Below are positions 19,685 through 27,850 of a stretch of 64,000 bases of DNA, one piece after another. Each line of letters begins with the position of its first letter. Positions within the stretch are counted from its first letter, which is position 1. This DNA comes from Candidatus Eremiobacteraceae bacterium (lineage in GTDB: Bacteria > Vulcanimicrobiota > Vulcanimicrobiia > Eremiobacterales > Eremiobacteraceae): the NCBI GenBank assembly GCA_035710745.1, contig DASTCX010000013.1:1-64000 (forward strand). The letters are read 5' to 3'. The translations under genes and the position numbers were made by a program. The notes below the pieces were generated by a model. That model had not been told where the DNA came from, did no database searches, and saw nothing but the letters and a program-made list of their open reading frames with translations.

Positions 19685-20380
19685 TTAGAACGTGGCGCCG
19701 ACGCCGATCTCGACGCCCGACAGTGATCGCGGCGAAAAGCTCGCCGCTGAGAAATTCTGATCCGAGAATCCGATGCGACCGAAAAGCCCCGACGTGCCGG
19801 GCGGCGTGAATGCGAGTCCGAGCCGGAGCACGGTCAGACCGCCGCGCGTCGTGCCCGATGGAAGCGACGGATAGTAGAACCCCGACCCGTAGAGCGAGAT
19901 CCTGCGCGCGAAGTCGGGCAGCACGGTGAGGCCGAGACCCAAACCGCTCGACGTGGCGTGCGCGGTCGATCGCTGTAGCGCCGCGTAGCCGATTCCGATC
20001 GCGAGCGGCGTCTTCGAGAACTGGTAGAGTCCGTTCACATCGAGGCGAGATTCGACCGATGAGTCGTCGCCGTGGATGTTGACGTCTTCGAAATGAAGTG
20101 TCGCCAAATACGAATCGGAGAGGCGGCCTTGCAGCTCTAGCTCGTATCCGGTCGACCCCGCGGCTTTGAAGGGTGCGGGCGTCGGCGACGCCGGCACGAT
20201 CCCGCCGGATCCGTTCAACGTCATGACGCCGAAGAGCGCGTAGCCGCCGCTGCCTACGCCGGCGCTTGCGCTCGGCGACGGGCTCGGGAACGGACTGGAC
20301 TCATCGGCATTCGCGCTCGGGCGCTGCACGATGAAGAGCGCGGCGAGGACTGCCAGCAGTCCGGCCGCGGCGACGCGCAC
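19685..20380 (-). CDS. Secreted beta-barrel-like protein
   Basis: 231 residues with a signal peptide (about 1-26, MRVAAAGLLAVLAALFIVQ) and a Ser/Pro-rich linker (FPSPSPSASAG). Alternating hydrophobic and polar strands with Gly/Ser turns follow to a C-terminal Phe (VEIGVGATF), the hallmark of outer-membrane beta-barrels. No named family was recognised. GTG 20380 is 3 nt after the rpsT stop, so the two genes share a transcript from the rpsT promoter. A stand-alone promoter is not possible in the gap. Confidence 0.75.
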   Translation of the reverse strand: MRVAAAGLLAVLAALFIVQRPSANADESSPFPSPSPSASAGVGSGGYALFGVMTLNGSGGIVPASPTPAPFKAAGSTGYELELQGRLSDSYLATLHFEDVNIHGDDSSVESRLDVNGLYQFSKTPLAIGIGYAALQRSTAHATSSGLGLGLTVLPDFARRISLYGSGFYYPSLPSGTTRGGLTVLRLGLAFTPPGTSGLFGRIGFSDQNFSAASFSPRSLSGVEIGVGATF

Positions 20381-21625: not shown

Positions 21626-22492
21626 ATGGAACTGCCGCACATCACGTTCGGCTGGACCGATGTCCTCGACGTCGTGCTCACCGCCTACGTCGTCTACGTC
21701 GTGCTCTTGCTCATCCGCGGAACGCGCGCCGTGCAGATATTGCAAGGCATCGCGCTCCTGCTCGTGCTTCGGCTCATCGCGCAGGGACTGCACCTATGGA
21801 CGATGCTCTCGATCTTCAACGGTTTGCTCATCGCGTCCGGCGTCGCGATACCGGTCGTATTCCAGCCGGAGCTGCGCCGGGCGCTTGCGCTGCTCGGCAC
21901 CGGTGAGTTCCTCGAAGGCCGAGGCGCGCACCACGGCGCCGGCACCGACGGCGAGGTCGCGGGGATCGTCGGACGAGCGGCCGCTAATTTTGCGCGCGGC
22001 GCGATCGGCGCCATCATCGTCATCGAGCGCGCCACCGGCCTCGAGGAGTACGTCGAGAGCGGCCGCGTGCTCGACGCGCGGATCTCCTACGAGTTGCTGT
22101 TGACGCTTTTCGCGCCGAAGACGCCGCTCCACGACGGCGCGGTCATCGTTCGCCGCGACCGCATCGTCGCGGCCGGTTGCTTCTTGCCGCTCTCGGAGGC
22201 GACCGTCGACCGCCGCATCGGCACGCGGCACCGGGCGGCGCTTGGATTGACGGAGCAGACGGATTCGATCGTGCTGCTCGTGTCGGAGGAGACGGGCGAC
22301 ATCGAGATCGCGCGCGCAGGTCGTCTGACACTCGTAGGCAAGGGTGCCGAGGACGCGACTTCGGCGCTCCTGCAGGCGATGGCGCCGGCATCGACGGCGC
22401 AGAACGTCTCGTTCATCGACAGGGTGAGGATGCTATGGGGCAGAGCGGATGGCGCTGCTGATCGATTCGGTAAGACGCAACTTCGGCCTTAA
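21626..22492 (+). CDS. cdaA: Diadenylate cyclase (c-di-AMP synthase, CdaA type)
   Basis: A membrane enzyme condensing two ATP to c-di-AMP. Three N-terminal membrane helices (about residues 12-85) precede the DAC domain (about 95-260), which carries both catalytic signatures: LHDGAVIV (DGA, about 169-176) and GTRHRAALG (RHR, about 199-207). The FQPELRRALALLG segment before the domain is also typical. 288 aa is normal for CdaA. It lies in the classic order cdaA-cdaR-glmM, in which CdaR and GlmM are known regulators of the cyclase. Confidence 0.96.
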   Translation: MELPHITFGWTDVLDVVLTAYVVYVVLLLIRGTRAVQILQGIALLLVLRLIAQGLHLWTMLSIFNGLLIASGVAIPVVFQPELRRALALLGTGEFLEGRGAHHGAGTDGEVAGIVGRAAANFARGAIGAIIVIERATGLEEYVESGRVLDARISYELLLTLFAPKTPLHDGAVIVRRDRIVAAGCFLPLSEATVDRRIGTRHRAALGLTEQTDSIVLLVSEETGDIEIARAGRLTLVGKGAEDATSALLQAMAPASTAQNVSFIDRVRMLWGRADGAADRFGKTQLRP

Positions 22493-23129
22493 GGTGACGG
22501 CCGTCGTCGTCTCGGTCGCGCTGTGGTTCACGCTGAACTATTTCGGCAGCTCGCAAGACGTCTTTTCGAAGACGCTCGAACTGCCGCTAGCGGTGCGCGG
22601 GCTCGGCGCTGGGTTCGTCGCGGCCCCTCAAGTCGAGACGGTGAGGGTCGACCTTTCGGGCCCGCGACCCGACGTCGAGAGCGCAACCGTCTCGGATCTC
22701 TCCGCATTCGTCGATTGCTCGGGACGTCAGACCGGCGTTTACTCGTTCGCGGTGAACGTCGTCGGGCGCGATGCCGATAAGGTTAAGGTAGTGACTCCCG
22801 ATCAAGCGGTCGTCTCGATCGATCGGTACGCCTTTCGAGCGGTCCCAGTGCTCGCGCGCGGCGCGGGCGGGACCTTGCTGGCAAACGCCGTGGTCGCGCC
22901 TTCGACCATCGAAGTGGCTGGCGGCGCATCGACGGTCGCGAAAGTCGTCGCGGTCCAAGTCGTCGTGCCGGAACCCGGCGCGCTGCCCGCCGGCTTTGCT
23001 GCCGTCATGAAACCGGATCCGATCGACGGCGCATTGCAGCCGGTGCGTGGCGTCACCGTTCTCGGCGTCGTCCGCGTGACCGCGCCGACCGGCTCGACCT
23101 CGCCGGACCTCGGTACGACACCGAAATGA
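22449..23129 (+). CDS. cdaR: YbbR-domain protein, CdaA regulator
   Basis: 226 residues. A short cytoplasmic N-terminus is followed by one membrane helix (about 13-34, LKVTAVVVSVALWFTLNYF). YbbR beta-repeats sit outside (about 40-115 and 120-200; VRGLGAGFVAAPQVETVRVDLSG is typical of repeat 1). In Firmicutes CdaR modulates CdaA through its membrane segment. ATG 22449 overlaps the end of cdaA by 44 nt, and its stop overlaps the glmM ATG. It has two to three repeats, shorter than the four in Bacillus CdaR. Confidence 0.88.
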   Translation: MALLIDSVRRNFGLKVTAVVVSVALWFTLNYFGSSQDVFSKTLELPLAVRGLGAGFVAAPQVETVRVDLSGPRPDVESATVSDLSAFVDCSGRQTGVYSFAVNVVGRDADKVKVVTPDQAVVSIDRYAFRAVPVLARGAGGTLLANAVVAPSTIEVAGGASTVAKVVAVQVVVPEPGALPAGFAAVMKPDPIDGALQPVRGVTVLGVVRVTAPTGSTSPDLGTTPK

Positions 23130-24463
23130 ACCGCCTCTTCGGCACCGACGGCGTCCGCGGCGTCGCGAACGAATTTCTCACGCCGGAGCTCGCCTTTGCG
23201 CTCGGCCGCGCCGGCGCTTCCGTGCTCGCCGCGCACGGTGAGCGGCGTCCGATCCTCGTCGGGCGCGACACGCGGCTTTCGGGACCGATGCTCGAAAACG
23301 CGCTCAGCGCCGGCGTATGCTCGATCGGGCTCGACGTTTGGAAGCTCGGCATCGTCCCGACTCCGGCGGTCGCGTTCTTGACGCGTCAGCTCGAAGCCGC
23401 GGCCGGCGTCATGATCTCCGCGTCACATAATCCCATCGAAGATAACGGCATCAAGTTCTTCGCCGCTGACGGCTGCAAGCTACCCGACACGCTGGAGGAT
23501 GAGATCGCCGGGCATGTCGAGGCGCATCACGAGCTGCCGCGCCCGACCGGAAAGCAGATCGGAACGATCGGCGACCGGACGCGCGACGTGGCGGCGTACG
23601 CCGATCACTGCGTCGCCCTCGGCGGAGATCTCTCCGGCCTCACGGTCGTCGTCGACGGCGCTTACGGGTCTGCCTACGATCTCGCGCCGCGCATCTTACG
23701 GCGCCTCGGAGCAGGCGTCATCCGTCTCCATTGCAAGGACGATGGCGGCCGGATCAACGTCCGCTGCGGCGCGACAGATCTGACGTCGCTGCGCCGCGCC
23801 GTCGCGCGGCACCCGAACAGCATCGGCGTCGCGTTCGATGGCGATGCGGACCGCGCTCTCTTCGTCGACGAAGGCGGGGAGGTCGTCACCGGCGATCACG
23901 TGCTCGCCATCTGGGCGAAGGAACTGCTCGATTCGGACGAGCTGCCGCACAAGACGATCGTCGCGACGGTCATGAGCAATCTCGGCCTCGAGCTGGCGAT
24001 CGCCGCGATGGGCGCGAAGCTCGTGCGGACGGCAGTCGGCGACCGCTACGTCCTCGAGGCGATGCAGCGCGGCGGGTTCAGGATCGGCGGCGAGCAGTCG
24101 GGGCACATCATCGACCTCGAGGCGAACACGACGGGTGACGGCATCGCGACCGCTGTGCGGCTGCTGTCGCTCGCGGCCAAGGCCGGCGCATTGCGCGCGT
24201 TGCGCGAGCGCATGCAGACATATCCGCAGATCCTGGTCAACGTCCGCGTCGACGACAAGCGGTGCGTCGAGCGCGACGGCGTTCGCGATGCGATCGCCGC
24301 GGCCGAAAAATCGATGCGGGGCAAGGGTCGCATCCTTGTGAGGCCGTCAGGCACCGAGCCGCTCATCCGTATCATGATCGAAGGGCAAGACGAGTCCGAA
24401 ATGCGGACGATAGCCCAGTCGATCGCCGACCGCATCGTTGCTGCGGCCCCGTCAATCACATAG
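23126..24463 (+). CDS. glmM: Phosphoglucosamine mutase
   Basis: Interconverts glucosamine-6-P and glucosamine-1-P on the route to UDP-GlcNAc (445 aa). Motifs: MNRLFGTDGVRGVAN start; catalytic phosphoserine loop ISASHNPIEDNGIKFF (about 97-112); metal loop DGDADRALFVDE (about 238-249); sugar loop GGEQSGHII (about 321-329); phosphate loop RPSGTEPLIRIMIEG (about 409-423). ATG 23126 overlaps the cdaR stop. GlmS, the preceding enzyme in the pathway, is encoded at 56.8-58.7 kb. Confidence 0.97.
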   Translation: MNRLFGTDGVRGVANEFLTPELAFALGRAGASVLAAHGERRPILVGRDTRLSGPMLENALSAGVCSIGLDVWKLGIVPTPAVAFLTRQLEAAAGVMISASHNPIEDNGIKFFAADGCKLPDTLEDEIAGHVEAHHELPRPTGKQIGTIGDRTRDVAAYADHCVALGGDLSGLTVVVDGAYGSAYDLAPRILRRLGAGVIRLHCKDDGGRINVRCGATDLTSLRRAVARHPNSIGVAFDGDADRALFVDEGGEVVTGDHVLAIWAKELLDSDELPHKTIVATVMSNLGLELAIAAMGAKLVRTAVGDRYVLEAMQRGGFRIGGEQSGHIIDLEANTTGDGIATAVRLLSLAAKAGALRALRERMQTYPQILVNVRVDDKRCVERDGVRDAIAAAEKSMRGKGRILVRPSGTEPLIRIMIEGQDESEMRTIAQSIADRIVAAAPSIT

Positions 24464-24664
24464 AACCGTTTTACGGGACGCCATAAGAGGACGGCCTGGT
24501 ACGGCCGCGCGAACCCCGGCAAAAGACCCTAGTGATGCGCGGCATTGAGACCGCGCCGCCCTCCCAGTTACCATGGAGGTAGTCAGGCAGACCCGCGAGC
24601 CTGCCATCCATCGCAAGGCCGGTCAAGGCGCCCAGGACGGGCTGCCGCAGCTAGGCCAGACCAA
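24464..24664 (+). other. Unassigned structured leader upstream of the riboswitch
   Basis: About 200 nt between glmM and the c-di-AMP riboswitch, with no ORF of credible codon use. Several hairpins are visible: CGGCC/GGCCG (about 24495-24511), GCGCGG/CCGCGC (about 24538-24557) and GGCAG/CTGCC (about 24589-24606). It may contain the promoter, the glmM transcript end, or a second RNA element. I did not match it to a known RNA family. Confidence 0.5.
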
Positions 24665-24794
24665 GTCGCCGAGTTCGTGAGGCCCTGAGGGCCGGCCACG
24701 AAACGGGGGACCCATCGGTTGGGGTGAGTCCGCGCAGATGAGCGCGGAGGCGCGATCTTTCCCGCGCTAACCCGTCAGCTAACCCCGTAGGCGT
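24665..24794 (+). promoter_or_regulatory. Cyclic di-AMP riboswitch (ydaO/yuaA type)
   Basis: The conserved blocks of the ydaO aptamer appear in order: CGCCGAG (24667-24673), ACGGGGGACC (24703-24712), TTGGGGTGAGTCC (24719-24731), the variable GCGC hairpin with GGAGGCGCGA, then CCCGCGCTAACC and CAGCTAACCCCGTAGGCG (24776-24793). P1 forms from CGCC at 24667 and GGCG at 24790-24793. The downstream SD, GGAAGAGG, begins only 4 nt after P1 and the TTG start 16 nt after, so the likely mode is control of SD access or premature termination. Known members switch off cell-wall hydrolase genes when c-di-AMP is high, and the regulated gene here is one. Confidence 0.92.
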
Positions 24795-24809
24795 TCGGAA
24801 GAGGTACCG

Positions 24810-25589
24810 TTGCGATCTCTCGCTGTTTTTAGCGTTCTCGCGGCCTTTGTCGCCGTTTGTGCGATGCCCGCTGGGGCTGCGAATCTCGTCCACACAGTTG
24901 TGGCCGGAGATACGCTTTGGACCATCGCGCGGGCGAATAACGTCTCAGTCGCGCAGCTCGAGGCGCTCAACCACCTCACCGACGCCAGCATTTTGCAGAT
25001 CGGTGAATCCGTCGTGCTGCGAACCGCGCAGGTAAGACCGACGAAGGTCGCCGCGCGTCACGCATCTGCAAGCGTGCGGCACTCCAAGACTGTTGTCGCG
25101 CAGCGGGTCTCGACGCCCGAACCCGGAGCGATGAAGAACGCCGTTTGGTTTGCGACGCACACCGGCGAAGCGCCGCCGCCGCCCGTCTCCGTAAGTTTCG
25201 AAGTCGCACGGCGCATCCTCGCTTTCGATGAGCGCGTGACGCACACCGCGCTGCGCTACATCGGCGTGCCGTACGTCTGGGGCGGCACGTCCTTCGGCGG
25301 CGTCGACTGTTCGGGCTTCGTGTACGCGGTCTTCGAGCATAACGGCATCGACGTACCGCGCACCGCCGATAGCCAGTTCGAAGTCGGCCGGCCCGTTGCG
25401 ACTCGCGATCTGCAGCCCGGCGATCTCGTGTTCTTCCAGACGTACGCACCCGGCGCGTCGCACGTCGGCATCTATCTCGGCGGCGGCCGATTCGTCCACG
25501 CATCTGCGTCGGACGGCGTACGCATCGACGAACTCTCCATGGATTACTACGCGTCGCGCTACATCGGGGCTCGACGGCTCATCCACTGA
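24810..25589 (+). CDS. LysM and NlpC/P60 peptidoglycan hydrolase
   Basis: A 259-residue secreted endopeptidase. Signal peptide (about 1-25), one LysM domain (about 28-72, HTVVAGDTLWTIARANNVSVAQL), an Arg/Thr-rich linker, and an NlpC/P60 domain (about 145-258). The catalytic Cys is in GVDCSGFVYAVF (about residue 167), the His in GASHVGIYLGGG (about 218) and the third polar residue in RFVHASA (about 230). TTG 24810 is placed by GGAAGAGG at 24797-24804 and gives a proper signal peptide. It should cleave stem-peptide bonds during wall growth and is under the c-di-AMP riboswitch. Confidence 0.95.
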   Translation: MRSLAVFSVLAAFVAVCAMPAGAANLVHTVVAGDTLWTIARANNVSVAQLEALNHLTDASILQIGESVVLRTAQVRPTKVAARHASASVRHSKTVVAQRVSTPEPGAMKNAVWFATHTGEAPPPPVSVSFEVARRILAFDERVTHTALRYIGVPYVWGGTSFGGVDCSGFVYAVFEHNGIDVPRTADSQFEVGRPVATRDLQPGDLVFFQTYAPGASHVGIYLGGGRFVHASASDGVRIDELSMDYYASRYIGARRLIH

Positions 25590-25690
25590 TCTCGGTTGGC
25601 GCGGCGCCGATGTGACGCCGCTCACGCTGGGCCGCACGGACGCATCTTCAGAACCCCAGCCGATAACGTACGTGAGCGGAGGATGTGACC

Positions 25691-26236
25691 GTGAAGAATG
25701 GACCTAGCGTCGCGAATGCGGCGAGCGACAAGACGATCCAACACGCCAAGATCCGCGGCGTTTCGATCTGGTTCTATATCATCGCCGGCTTGCAGCTGCT
25801 GTCGGCGTATCAGGCGTATCAGGCCGGAAGCGATGCGCTTGCAGCCGCCGGAGCGACGATCGCCGTCGTCGACCTGCTCATCGGCGCCGCGTTCGTCGTG
25901 CTCGGGTACTTCGCGGGCCAGAGACATCCGTGGGCATTCGTCGCAGGCATCGTGCTCTACGTGATCCGCACCGCCGTCAATCTCATCCAGTTCTTCAGCC
26001 CGATCGCGCTCCTCATCCGTCTCTATCTCACGTATCGAATCTGGCAAGGCTTGCAGGCCTGTCTGGCCGCGAATCGCGCCGATCAAGCGATGGCGATGCT
26101 CAACCAGCGGCGCCTCGTCATGCCGACGACGTCTCCGGCGACATCGTTTGCGTCGAGCGAGCCTGCCGCAGCGGCGCCGGCACCGGCACAACCGTGGCGC
26201 CCGGCGATGCAACAGTCGGAGCCCGAGACGCCGTAG
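25691..26236 (+). CDS. Small integral membrane protein, unknown function
   Basis: 181 residues with three or four membrane helices between about residues 23 and 120 (GVSIWFYIIAGLQLLSAYQA; TIAVVDLLIGAAFVVLGYF; WAFVAGIVLYVIRTAVNLI) and a Pro/Ala/Ser-rich cytoplasmic tail. GTG 25691 is preferred to GTG 25685 because GGAGGA ends at 25683, a usable 7-nt spacing for 25691 only. It follows the NlpC/P60 gene and is closed by a terminator, so it may belong to the riboswitch-controlled transcript. Confidence 0.8.
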   Translation: MKNGPSVANAASDKTIQHAKIRGVSIWFYIIAGLQLLSAYQAYQAGSDALAAAGATIAVVDLLIGAAFVVLGYFAGQRHPWAFVAGIVLYVIRTAVNLIQFFSPIALLIRLYLTYRIWQGLQACLAANRADQAMAMLNQRRLVMPTTSPATSFASSEPAAAAPAPAQPWRPAMQQSEPETP

Positions 26237-26381: not shown

Positions 26382-26454
26382 TGGGGCGTAGCCAAGCTGG
26401 TAAGGCAGCGGCCTTTGGAGCCGCCATGCGAAGGTTCGAGTCCTTCCGCCCCAG
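26382..26454 (+). tRNA. tRNA-Gln (TTG anticodon)
   Basis: 73-nt cloverleaf: acceptor TGGGGCG/CGCCCCA, anticodon arm GCGGC-CTTTGGA-GCCGC giving anticodon TTG, and T arm GAAGG-TTCGAGT-CCTTC, followed by discriminator G. The 3' CCA is not encoded (GCAC follows). Confidence 0.95.
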
Positions 26455-26507
26455 CACACGCATCCGACGGCGGCATGCCATCGTATACTAGGGCGGGAGC
26501 ATGCAAT

Positions 26508-27080
26508 TTGCCGCGTGACATCGCAGACGACCGGCTGATCGAGGCGCTCGGCCGCCAGGACGTCGGCGCGCTCGAATCGTTCTACGACCGCTACGGCAAG
26601 GTCGCGTATTCGCTCGCGTACCGGATCGTCGGCGAACGCGGCGTCGCCGAAGACGTCGTCCAGGACGCGTTCCTGTCGGTCTGGCGTCAGGCGAAGTCGT
26701 ATCGACCTGACCGCGGCAGCCCGAAGACGTGGCTCATGGCGATCGTGCGCAACCGTTCGATCGACAAGCTGCGCTCGCACGCGTCGGGTGCGAACTCCGT
26801 CTCGATCGACGAGATCCCGGAAGATTTCGGCGCCGAGCCCGGACCCTGGCAGCAGGTATGGAGCGACGTGCGCGGCACGACGGTTCGCGACGCGCTCGAG
26901 CGGTTGCCCGTCGAGCAGAAGAAGAGCATCGAGCTCGCGTACTTCTCGGGCTACTCGCAAACAGAGATCGCCGACTTGATGGGCGTGCCGCTCGGCACGG
27001 TCAAGGGAAGGATGCGGATCGGTCTTCAGAAGCTGAAAGCGATGCTCGAAACACCGGAATTGGGGGTGAGCGGCATATGA
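26508..27080 (+). CDS. ECF-type RNA polymerase sigma factor
   Basis: 190 residues. Region 2 (about 25-95) contains YDRYGKVAYSLAYRIVGERGVAEDVVQDAFLSVW and WLMAIVRNRSIDKLR. Region 4 (about 125-180) has ALERLPVEQKKSIELAYFSGYSQTEIADLMGVPLGTVKGRM, a typical HTH. TTG 26508 is chosen because GGGCGGGAG lies about 8 nt upstream; an open frame continues back through the tRNA but is not credible. TATACT at 26484-26489 may be its -10 box. The stop overlaps the anti-sigma ATG, so the pair is coupled. Confidence 0.94.
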   Translation: MPRDIADDRLIEALGRQDVGALESFYDRYGKVAYSLAYRIVGERGVAEDVVQDAFLSVWRQAKSYRPDRGSPKTWLMAIVRNRSIDKLRSHASGANSVSIDEIPEDFGAEPGPWQQVWSDVRGTTVRDALERLPVEQKKSIELAYFSGYSQTEIADLMGVPLGTVKGRMRIGLQKLKAMLETPELGVSGI

Positions 27081-27850
27081 TCGAATCGGATCACGTGCTC
27101 GATCTCACCGCTGCGTACGCGCTTCGCGCGCTGTCGCCCAGCGAGCAGAAGGTGGTTGAAGAGCATTGCGCCTCGTGCGCATCGTGCGCGGCCGACCTCG
27201 CCGAAATGAGCGGGCTCGCGGCGACGCTGCCGCTCGCGTGCGAACCGATGACGCCGTCGGCGGCGCTCAGGAGCAGGCTGCTCGCGCAAGCGCGAGGAGA
27301 AGCGGCGGCAGGCCAGGTGCTGCGCAATTCGCAGCGCCGCGCCGTCATGCGGGCGAGCACACCGTGGTGGGCCGGCCTTGCGGCGGCGGTATTTCTCGCA
27401 GGCGTCTCGCTCAACGTCTCCGCGATGATCGAGCGCTCTCGGATGGACGCGCAAGCGGCGTCGGCCTCGGCGCAGATGGCCGCGATGCGCGACGAGCTCG
27501 CGCTGAACAAAGGTGCGATCGTCGAGATCGCCGCCGCTCGCAAAGTATGGGATATGAGCGGCGGCAAGCCGTCGCACTGGTGGCACTGCACGCTGGCGCA
27601 GCCGTTCGGGAACAAGCCGGCGATGCTCGTCGCCTCGATGCCATCGATGCCGCAAGGAAAGACGTTCGAAGTCTGGGTGATCCGCGGCGGCAAGGTCCAC
27701 AGCGCGGGGATGGTGGCCGCCGGCAAGACGAGCATGATGCACATGCCGATGCCTGTCCGCAAGGGTGACGTCGTCGCTTTCAGCGTCGAGCCGATGGGCG
27801 GCAGCGCGACGCCGACGATGCCCTTCGCGATGTCGCAATCGCTCGATTGA
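27077..27850 (+). CDS. Anti-sigma factor, RskA-like with zinc motif
   Basis: 257 residues. The cytoplasmic N-terminal anti-sigma domain has a zinc motif HxxxCxxC (EEHCASCASC, about 30-38). One membrane helix follows (about 98-118, WWAGLAAAVFLAGVSLNVSAM), then a short coiled coil and a C-terminal extracytoplasmic RskA-type domain (about 165-255; KTFEVWVIRGGKVHSAGMVA, Met/His-rich MMHMPMPVRKGD). It would hold the adjacent ECF sigma factor at the membrane and release it after regulated proteolysis. The His/Met-rich outer segment could sense metal or oxidation, which is speculative. Confidence 0.93.
   Translation: MIESDHVLDLTAAYALRALSPSEQKVVEEHCASCASCAADLAEMSGLAATLPLACEPMTPSAALRSRLLAQARGEAAAGQVLRNSQRRAVMRASTPWWAGLAAAVFLAGVSLNVSAMIERSRMDAQAASASAQMAAMRDELALNKGAIVEIAAARKVWDMSGGKPSHWWHCTLAQPFGNKPAMLVASMPSMPQGKTFEVWVIRGGKVHSAGMVAAGKTSMMHMPMPVRKGDVVAFSVEPMGGSATPTMPFAMSQSLD

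Follow-up and report, generated by a model that had tools for sequence, protein, structure and literature searches.

Background

In Firmicutes, the genes cdaA, cdaR and glmM form an operon in that order. Riboswitches for cyclic diadenosine monophosphate (c-di-AMP) of the ydaO/yuaA (kimA) family (RF00379) end transcription in their prototypes, and the prototype of Bacillus subtilis works by terminator formation. For the crystallised ydaO aptamer, the internal loop CUCCUUCG and the 3´ tail CGAAGGAG are complementary to each other, and a stable pseudoknot is mentioned (PMC5393176). Translational control was reported for the switch of Corynebacterium glutamicum nlpC (cg2402), which lowered reporter protein but not mRNA; the authors propose base pairing between CTCC in the switch and GGAG in the ribosome site (PMC9960051). 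The rpfA/rpf1 c-di-AMP switches of actinobacteria concern another hydrolase family, and no link to the synthase operon is described for them there (PMC9960051). Here we analyse a 64,000-nucleotide stretch of DNA from Candidatus Eremiobacteraceae bacterium (assembly GCA_035710745.1, contig DASTCX010000013.1, positions 1 to 64,000), referred to as the window. It contains a c-di-AMP riboswitch aptamer placed between cdaA-cdaR-glmM, whose first gene encodes the c-di-AMP synthase, and nlpC, which encodes a secreted LysM-NlpC/P60 peptidoglycan hydrolase.

With the ydaO/yuaA prototypes the locus shares the aptamer, its core motifs and the pseudoknot between internal loop and 3´ tail. In contrast to them, the 3´ strand of its pseudoknot runs into the Shine-Dalgarno sequence and the start codon follows immediately; the terminator hairpin with T-run that is a feature of the ydaO/kimA type was not found in the window. 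The C. glutamicum switch has the same class of target, and the window shows features of the translational type, namely no terminator between aptamer and gene and a ribosome site predicted to lie partly in the pseudoknot. However, C. glutamicum uses DisA as its synthase and its nlpC heads an operon of its own, whereas the window switch stands behind cdaA-cdaR-glmM and comparable pairing is found over many genera.

We propose, with a probability of about 0.7, that the c-di-AMP switch acts as an OFF switch for the translation of nlpC, the last gene in a cdaA-cdaR-glmM-nlpC cluster. The RNA itself clearly belongs to a described family; its type of target has been described too, and its type of control has already been proposed. 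What appears to be new is the constant position of the switch after the c-di-AMP synthase operon throughout the class, its joint loss with the synthase, and comparative support for the Shine-Dalgarno sequence as part of a pseudoknot strand. Among the open-licence papers covered, none on riboswitches or c-di-AMP in Eremiobacterota was found.

Identity of the aptamer and its gene context

The original prediction, made from the letters of the window, placed a ydaO-type aptamer between these genes. The Rfam covariance search confirmed it with a full-length match (model positions 1-134) of 81.1 bits (E value 2.8e-17 for the window) against a gathering score of 38 bits. The predicted place was right, although the match begins at 24657 and not at 24665. 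It is the single RF00379 copy of the 2.97 Mb assembly. Alignment with the sequence quoted for the c-di-AMP-bound crystal construct (4QLM/4QLN) revealed that its core motifs CGGGGGAC, GGGGYGA and CCCGUCAGCUAACC are all present in the window aptamer. A thermodynamic single-sequence fold did not recover the known structure, and folding was therefore not used as evidence.

Pfam searches bear out the predicted gene context on both sides (Table 1). The CdaA translation contains both motifs of diadenylate cyclase (DAC) enzymes, DGA and RHR, and the cdaR frame overlaps both cdaA and glmM, which places the three genes in the same operon. The NlpC protein has 259 residues and starts with TTG, 1 nt after the end of the aptamer. 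The order of the elements was predicted correctly; the aptamer does not follow glmM directly, as had been stated, since 193 nt lie between them in the window genome.

Table 1. Coordinates of the features of the locus in the window
Feature	Position	Strand	Basis
cdaA, membrane diadenylate cyclase (c-di-AMP synthase)	21626..22492	+	Pfam DAC 137.8 bits, CdaA_N
cdaR, YbbR-domain regulator of CdaA	22449..23129	+	Pfam YbbR 36.3 bits
glmM, phosphoglucosamine mutase	23126..24463	+	four PGM_PMM (PGM/PMM) Pfam domains
Stretch from glmM stop to aptamer, 193 nt	24464..24656	+	no Rfam family; fold like that of shuffles; one promoter-like match
c-di-AMP riboswitch aptamer (ydaO/yuaA, RF00379)	24657..24808	+	covariance score; core motifs those of the crystallised aptamer
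P1, 5´ strand CGCC	24667..24670	+	Rfam consensus structure line
Predicted pseudoknot, loop strand UCUUUC	24756..24761	+	6-bp helix with 24797-24802, one G-U; complementarity kept across relatives
P1, 3´ strand GGCG	24790..24793	+	Rfam consensus structure line
Predicted pseudoknot, tail strand GGAAGA	24797..24802	+	loop-tail complementarity; matches pairing in crystallised sequence
nlpC Shine-Dalgarno sequence AGAGG	24800..24804	+	sequence; 5 nt ahead of TTG start
nlpC, putative regulated gene, secreted LysM-NlpC/P60 peptidoglycan hydrolase	24810..25589	+	Pfam NLPC_P60 110.8 bits, LysM 46.2 bits

Conservation of the link between switch and synthase

We searched 149 genomes of the phylum (Eremiobacterota/Vulcanimicrobiota) for RF00379 matches above the cut-off and for a DAC gene. 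The switch was found in 99 of them and the DAC gene in 131. Out of 109 switches, 81 lie on the same contig and strand as a DAC gene. For 79 of these the switch is located downstream of that gene at a distance of 1.7-4.3 kb, and in 74 of the 79 it lies within 2.5 kb. Inspection of the flanks of all 109 switches defined a canonical locus, with 95 matches distributed over 94 genomes. Upstream of the switch, 89 of these copies have a recognised glmM homologue; downstream, 93 have an nlpC homologue, and the other two are cut by contig ends. The adjacency of switch and synthase is retained in about 40 genera. The genes and order of the Firmicutes operon are those of the window, but in the comparison set of 31 switch-bearing genomes from an NlpC search (nearly all of them Firmicutes, with one metagenome-assembled genome of Armatimonadetes) none of the 77 switches has a DAC gene within 20 kb. 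As far as the sampling goes, the link is a trait of the Eremiobacterota/Vulcanimicrobiota lineage and not of the RF00379 family at large. In 84 of the 93 canonical copies, TTG is the first in-frame candidate for the nlpC start, which is striking conservation for a rare start codon; TTG also fits nlpC in four of the five genomes without aptamer that are described below.

The presence of such a switch in a diderm host had been considered unusual. This point is weak, because the switch is widespread in the phylum and ydaO switches also stand ahead of NlpC homologues in Sporomusaceae/Negativicutes genomes (L286, L288), which are diderm Firmicutes. Vulcanimicrobium alpinus has the full arrangement of cdaA-cdaR-glmM, aptamer and nlpC. 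Its strain WC8-2, the first cultivated member of 'Candidatus Eremiobacterota', has thin peptidoglycan and an outer membrane covered by lipopolysaccharide (PMC9758169).

Among the phylum copies, the median distance between glmM stop codon and aptamer is 109 nt. In ten genomes at most 24 nt separate the two, and in one of these they even overlap, which leaves no room for a separate intergenic promoter. The aptamer is thus probably transcribed together with the synthase operon, judging by this spacing, and a promoter within glmM may be an alternative start for the nlpC transcript. At four loci, L047 (G095), L043 (G129), L086 (G089) and L135 (G025), about 2 kb of extra DNA lies between glmM and the aptamer.

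Joint loss of synthase and switch

Five genomes of the window's family (G015, G016, G021, G022 and G023), four of which are at least 96% complete, contain neither RF00379 nor a DAC gene. In these, cdaA and cdaR are gone ahead of glmM, and the aptamer is gone between glmM and nlpC. The two remaining genes still adjoin each other in all five and keep the same neighbourhood, with homologues of the window genes at 19685, rpsT and 20571; priA and the downstream sigma-factor gene are also seen in some of the stretches fetched from these genomes. Pfam counts of YbbR across the family proved too insensitive as evidence for the loss of cdaR, and the gene neighbourhood was used instead. On the glmM tree, the loss of cdaA and aptamer needs two changes and not one of 200 bootstrap trees reduces them to one; taken by themselves, the well-supported branches leave room for a single loss. 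Apparently, cdaA, cdaR and the aptamer were lost together in two events.

The reverse situation, an intact aptamer without synthase, was not found in the phylum sample; its two apparent cases, G049 and G110, are on contigs that end before the expected cdaA. Class genomes with synthase and without switch were checked apart from G070, G085 and G114, and most of them have contigs that stop short of the switch position; on the contig of G087 the start of a cut-off aptamer is visible. Such a pattern of loss would be expected of an aptamer that is retained for the sake of its ligand, and suggests that this is so. As to enzymes of c-di-AMP degradation, no PgpH-type phosphodiesterase was found in the window's family, and DHHA1 proteins occur nearly everywhere, genomes without cdaA included, so that they do not discriminate.

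One might object that the adjacency to cdaA is mere inherited gene order without regulatory meaning, and that the switch just controls nlpC, which happens to sit behind glmM. We consider this unlikely, albeit far from negligible. The order priA, rpsT, glmM, nlpC is generally conserved, also in lineages without cdaA; c-di-AMP diffuses, so its synthase need not be a neighbour of its receptor; and G035 and G094 lack the nlpC-switch unit while cdaA stays. Inherited order does not account, however, for the disappearance of the aptamer together with cdaA where nlpC stays, nor for an adjacency that is held in so many genera and absent from the comparison genomes. Joint loss and kept adjacency fit a functional link via the messenger; the uncertain element is the shared transcript alone. 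A diffusible messenger needs no adjacency; the retention of adjacency suggests shared transcription and a shared evolutionary fate. In any case, mere inheritance of the gene order would not conflict with what we propose for the switch itself.

Predicted pseudoknot and proposed control of nlpC translation

The counterpart of the crystallised pairing in the window is formed by UCUUUC and GGAAGA, with six pairs of which one is G-U. The tail-strand bases 24800-24802 (AGA) are at the same time the first three of AGAGG, so that they are shared by the predicted pseudoknot and the nlpC Shine-Dalgarno sequence. A helix between loop and tail was found in every copy scored, and only in a few divergent copies the best helix is short or in another register. 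Loop and tail vary in step with each other: most copies pair UCUUUC with GAAAGA, genera g36 and g47 pair UUCUUCC with GGAAGAA, and G012 pairs CUUCCAA with UUGGAAG; in second switch copies the strands are ACGGGA/UCCCGU and CGGGCA/UGUCCG. Because a MAFFT alignment over the whole aptamer slipped at the pseudoknot loop, the pairing was tested by swapping loops and tails between sequences in 1000 rounds and not by column counts. Over 55 copies (one per genus plus extras) the mean helix score was 15.2, compared with 13.8 +/- 0.27 after re-pairing, and none of the 1000 rounds scored as high, in a kind of test that relatedness of the sequences inflates. The window assembly is without a 16S ribosomal RNA of its own; that of the relative G118 ends in the usual CCTCC. 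The window switch would operate in the way proposed for C. glutamicum, and the comparative data lend that pseudoknot proposal independent support in another phylum. A hairpin over Shine-Dalgarno sequence and start codon of the window (AGAGGU with AUCUCU) was also considered, but visual inspection of the relatives' leaders did not show it there.

The first in-frame start of nlpC lies between 2 nt before and 8 nt after the end of the aptamer in nearly all copies. As the start codon abuts the aptamer, the leader has no room for a terminator, and no intrinsic terminator was predicted at 24300-25700. The original prediction derived translational control from P1 abutting the Shine-Dalgarno sequence. 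Translational control is indeed the best reading, given the start 1 nt behind the aptamer and the missing terminator, but the contact with the Shine-Dalgarno sequence is made by the pseudoknot strand 24797-24802 and not by P1.

From these features we infer ligand binding, the direction of control, the masking of the ribosome site and the shared transcript, and a possible course of events is as follows. CdaA would make c-di-AMP which, when plentiful, would occupy the aptamer and stabilise P1 together with the UCUUUC/GGAAGA pseudoknot next to it. The 3´ strand of the pseudoknot would then take up the 5´ part of the nlpC Shine-Dalgarno sequence and stack on the rest, so that ribosomes are blocked and less hydrolase is made. 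When c-di-AMP falls, the strand would be freed and the wall hydrolase translated. Control at the level of translation would allow cdaA, cdaR and glmM to share the transcript without being shut off.

Several observations weigh against this proposal. Firstly, in the window genome's family the gap ahead of the aptamer measures 170-220 nt and could hold a separate promoter. Secondly, the joint-loss argument is based on about two events. Thirdly, G035 and G094 keep cdaA, and there another gene replaces the nlpC-switch unit (the sequence extends beyond glmM). Further, when the re-pairing test is confined to the 41 canonical copies (one per genus), the scores are 15.0 and 14.5 +/- 0.24, with 43 of 1000 rounds as high. 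This result is marginal because both strands are strongly conserved in canonical copies, and it means that most of the covariation signal comes from the divergent ones. Finally, the pseudoknot takes only three of the five Shine-Dalgarno bases here, and in many relatives the AGGAG core lies mostly beside it; given this partial overlap, masking may rest on steric blocking.

Another possibility is that the c-di-AMP switch is genuine but that transcription is ended early in nlpC, by an intrinsic or Rho-dependent terminator, as in the Bacillus ydaO/kimA switch. We regard this as improbable. The terminator of the B. subtilis prototype speaks for it, and so does G012, from another class of the phylum, in which a terminator-like hairpin with a T-run lies between the aptamer and kdpA. 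A Rho site in the coding region of nlpC also stays compatible with it. Nevertheless, nearly all members of the window's class lack the leader room for such a device, and the terminator prediction for the window was negative. That c-di-AMP turns the gene on, or that the aptamer is a degenerate, non-binding remnant, is very improbable: in the window copy, the helix that surrounds the pseudoknot loop does deviate from the family consensus, and the copy's 81 bits are below many relatives (up to 95), but the aptamer core is intact, with 21 columns invariant over 55 sequences, its loss along with the synthase argues that it is kept for its ligand, and c-di-AMP riboswitches are described as OFF switches (PMC9960051).

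Leader sequences and further switches

The stretch 24464-24656 may carry a promoter of its own, in view of a weak promoter-like match (TTGAGA-18-TACCAT at 24545-24574). A separate structured RNA in this stretch was considered and rejected, as the stretch has no Rfam match and folds no better than shuffled sequences. Within the window's family, the leaders that separate glmM from nlpC have a common CGTGAC-like core, in some followed by a possible -10 box, and the core is retained also in the leaders of genomes without aptamer. It is possibly a promoter or a regulator site of nlpC. Further downstream, at 26382-27850, the window contains a tRNA gene, matched in the Rfam search. Behind it come two frames which, read from their translations, resemble an extracytoplasmic function (ECF) sigma factor and probably encode its anti-sigma factor counterpart, respectively.

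Additional c-di-AMP switches were met in the window's family (L060, L081, L119, L094, L124, L125 and L126) ahead of apparently secreted proteins: PF04185 phosphoesterases (L119, L125), a Laminin_G_3/GHL15-like protein (L124) and others without Pfam match. G027 carries three switches, and its cdaA lies on a contig that has none of them. Glycosyltransferase genes follow the second switches of G098, G096 and G065 (L132, L136 and L145); Pfam assigns those of L136 and L145 to group 1. The pseudoknot strands of L132 and L136 have changed to a GGG/CCC type, and ahead of the Shine-Dalgarno sequence there seems to be an additional hairpin. In other classes of the phylum (L042, L077, L117 and L076) the switch stands before an SLT transglycosylase, kdpA (with the terminator-like hairpin), an alanine racemase and a universal stress protein-like frame. 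The terminator scan did not return a terminator that had been suspected in L042 on visual inspection.

Conclusions

Extended to the whole class, our proposal becomes a picture that could go either way: the switch would lie within the transcript of its own messenger's synthase, the Shine-Dalgarno sequence of the hydrolase would be part of the pseudoknot strand, and precursor synthesis (glmM), messenger (cdaA) and wall cutting (nlpC) would be tied together in one RNA, the switch being discarded upon loss of the synthase.

Control of wall hydrolases by c-di-AMP has been studied mainly in Firmicutes and Actinobacteria, and the same logic is met here across a class of bacteria of the Gram-negative type. 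The translational mechanism, so far a proposal for one species, gains comparative support. Apparently two lineages have dropped synthase and switch and kept the target gene, which amounts to a natural deletion. A physiological link between c-di-AMP and the NlpC hydrolase thereby becomes directly testable, also in the cultivated Vulcanimicrobium alpinum.
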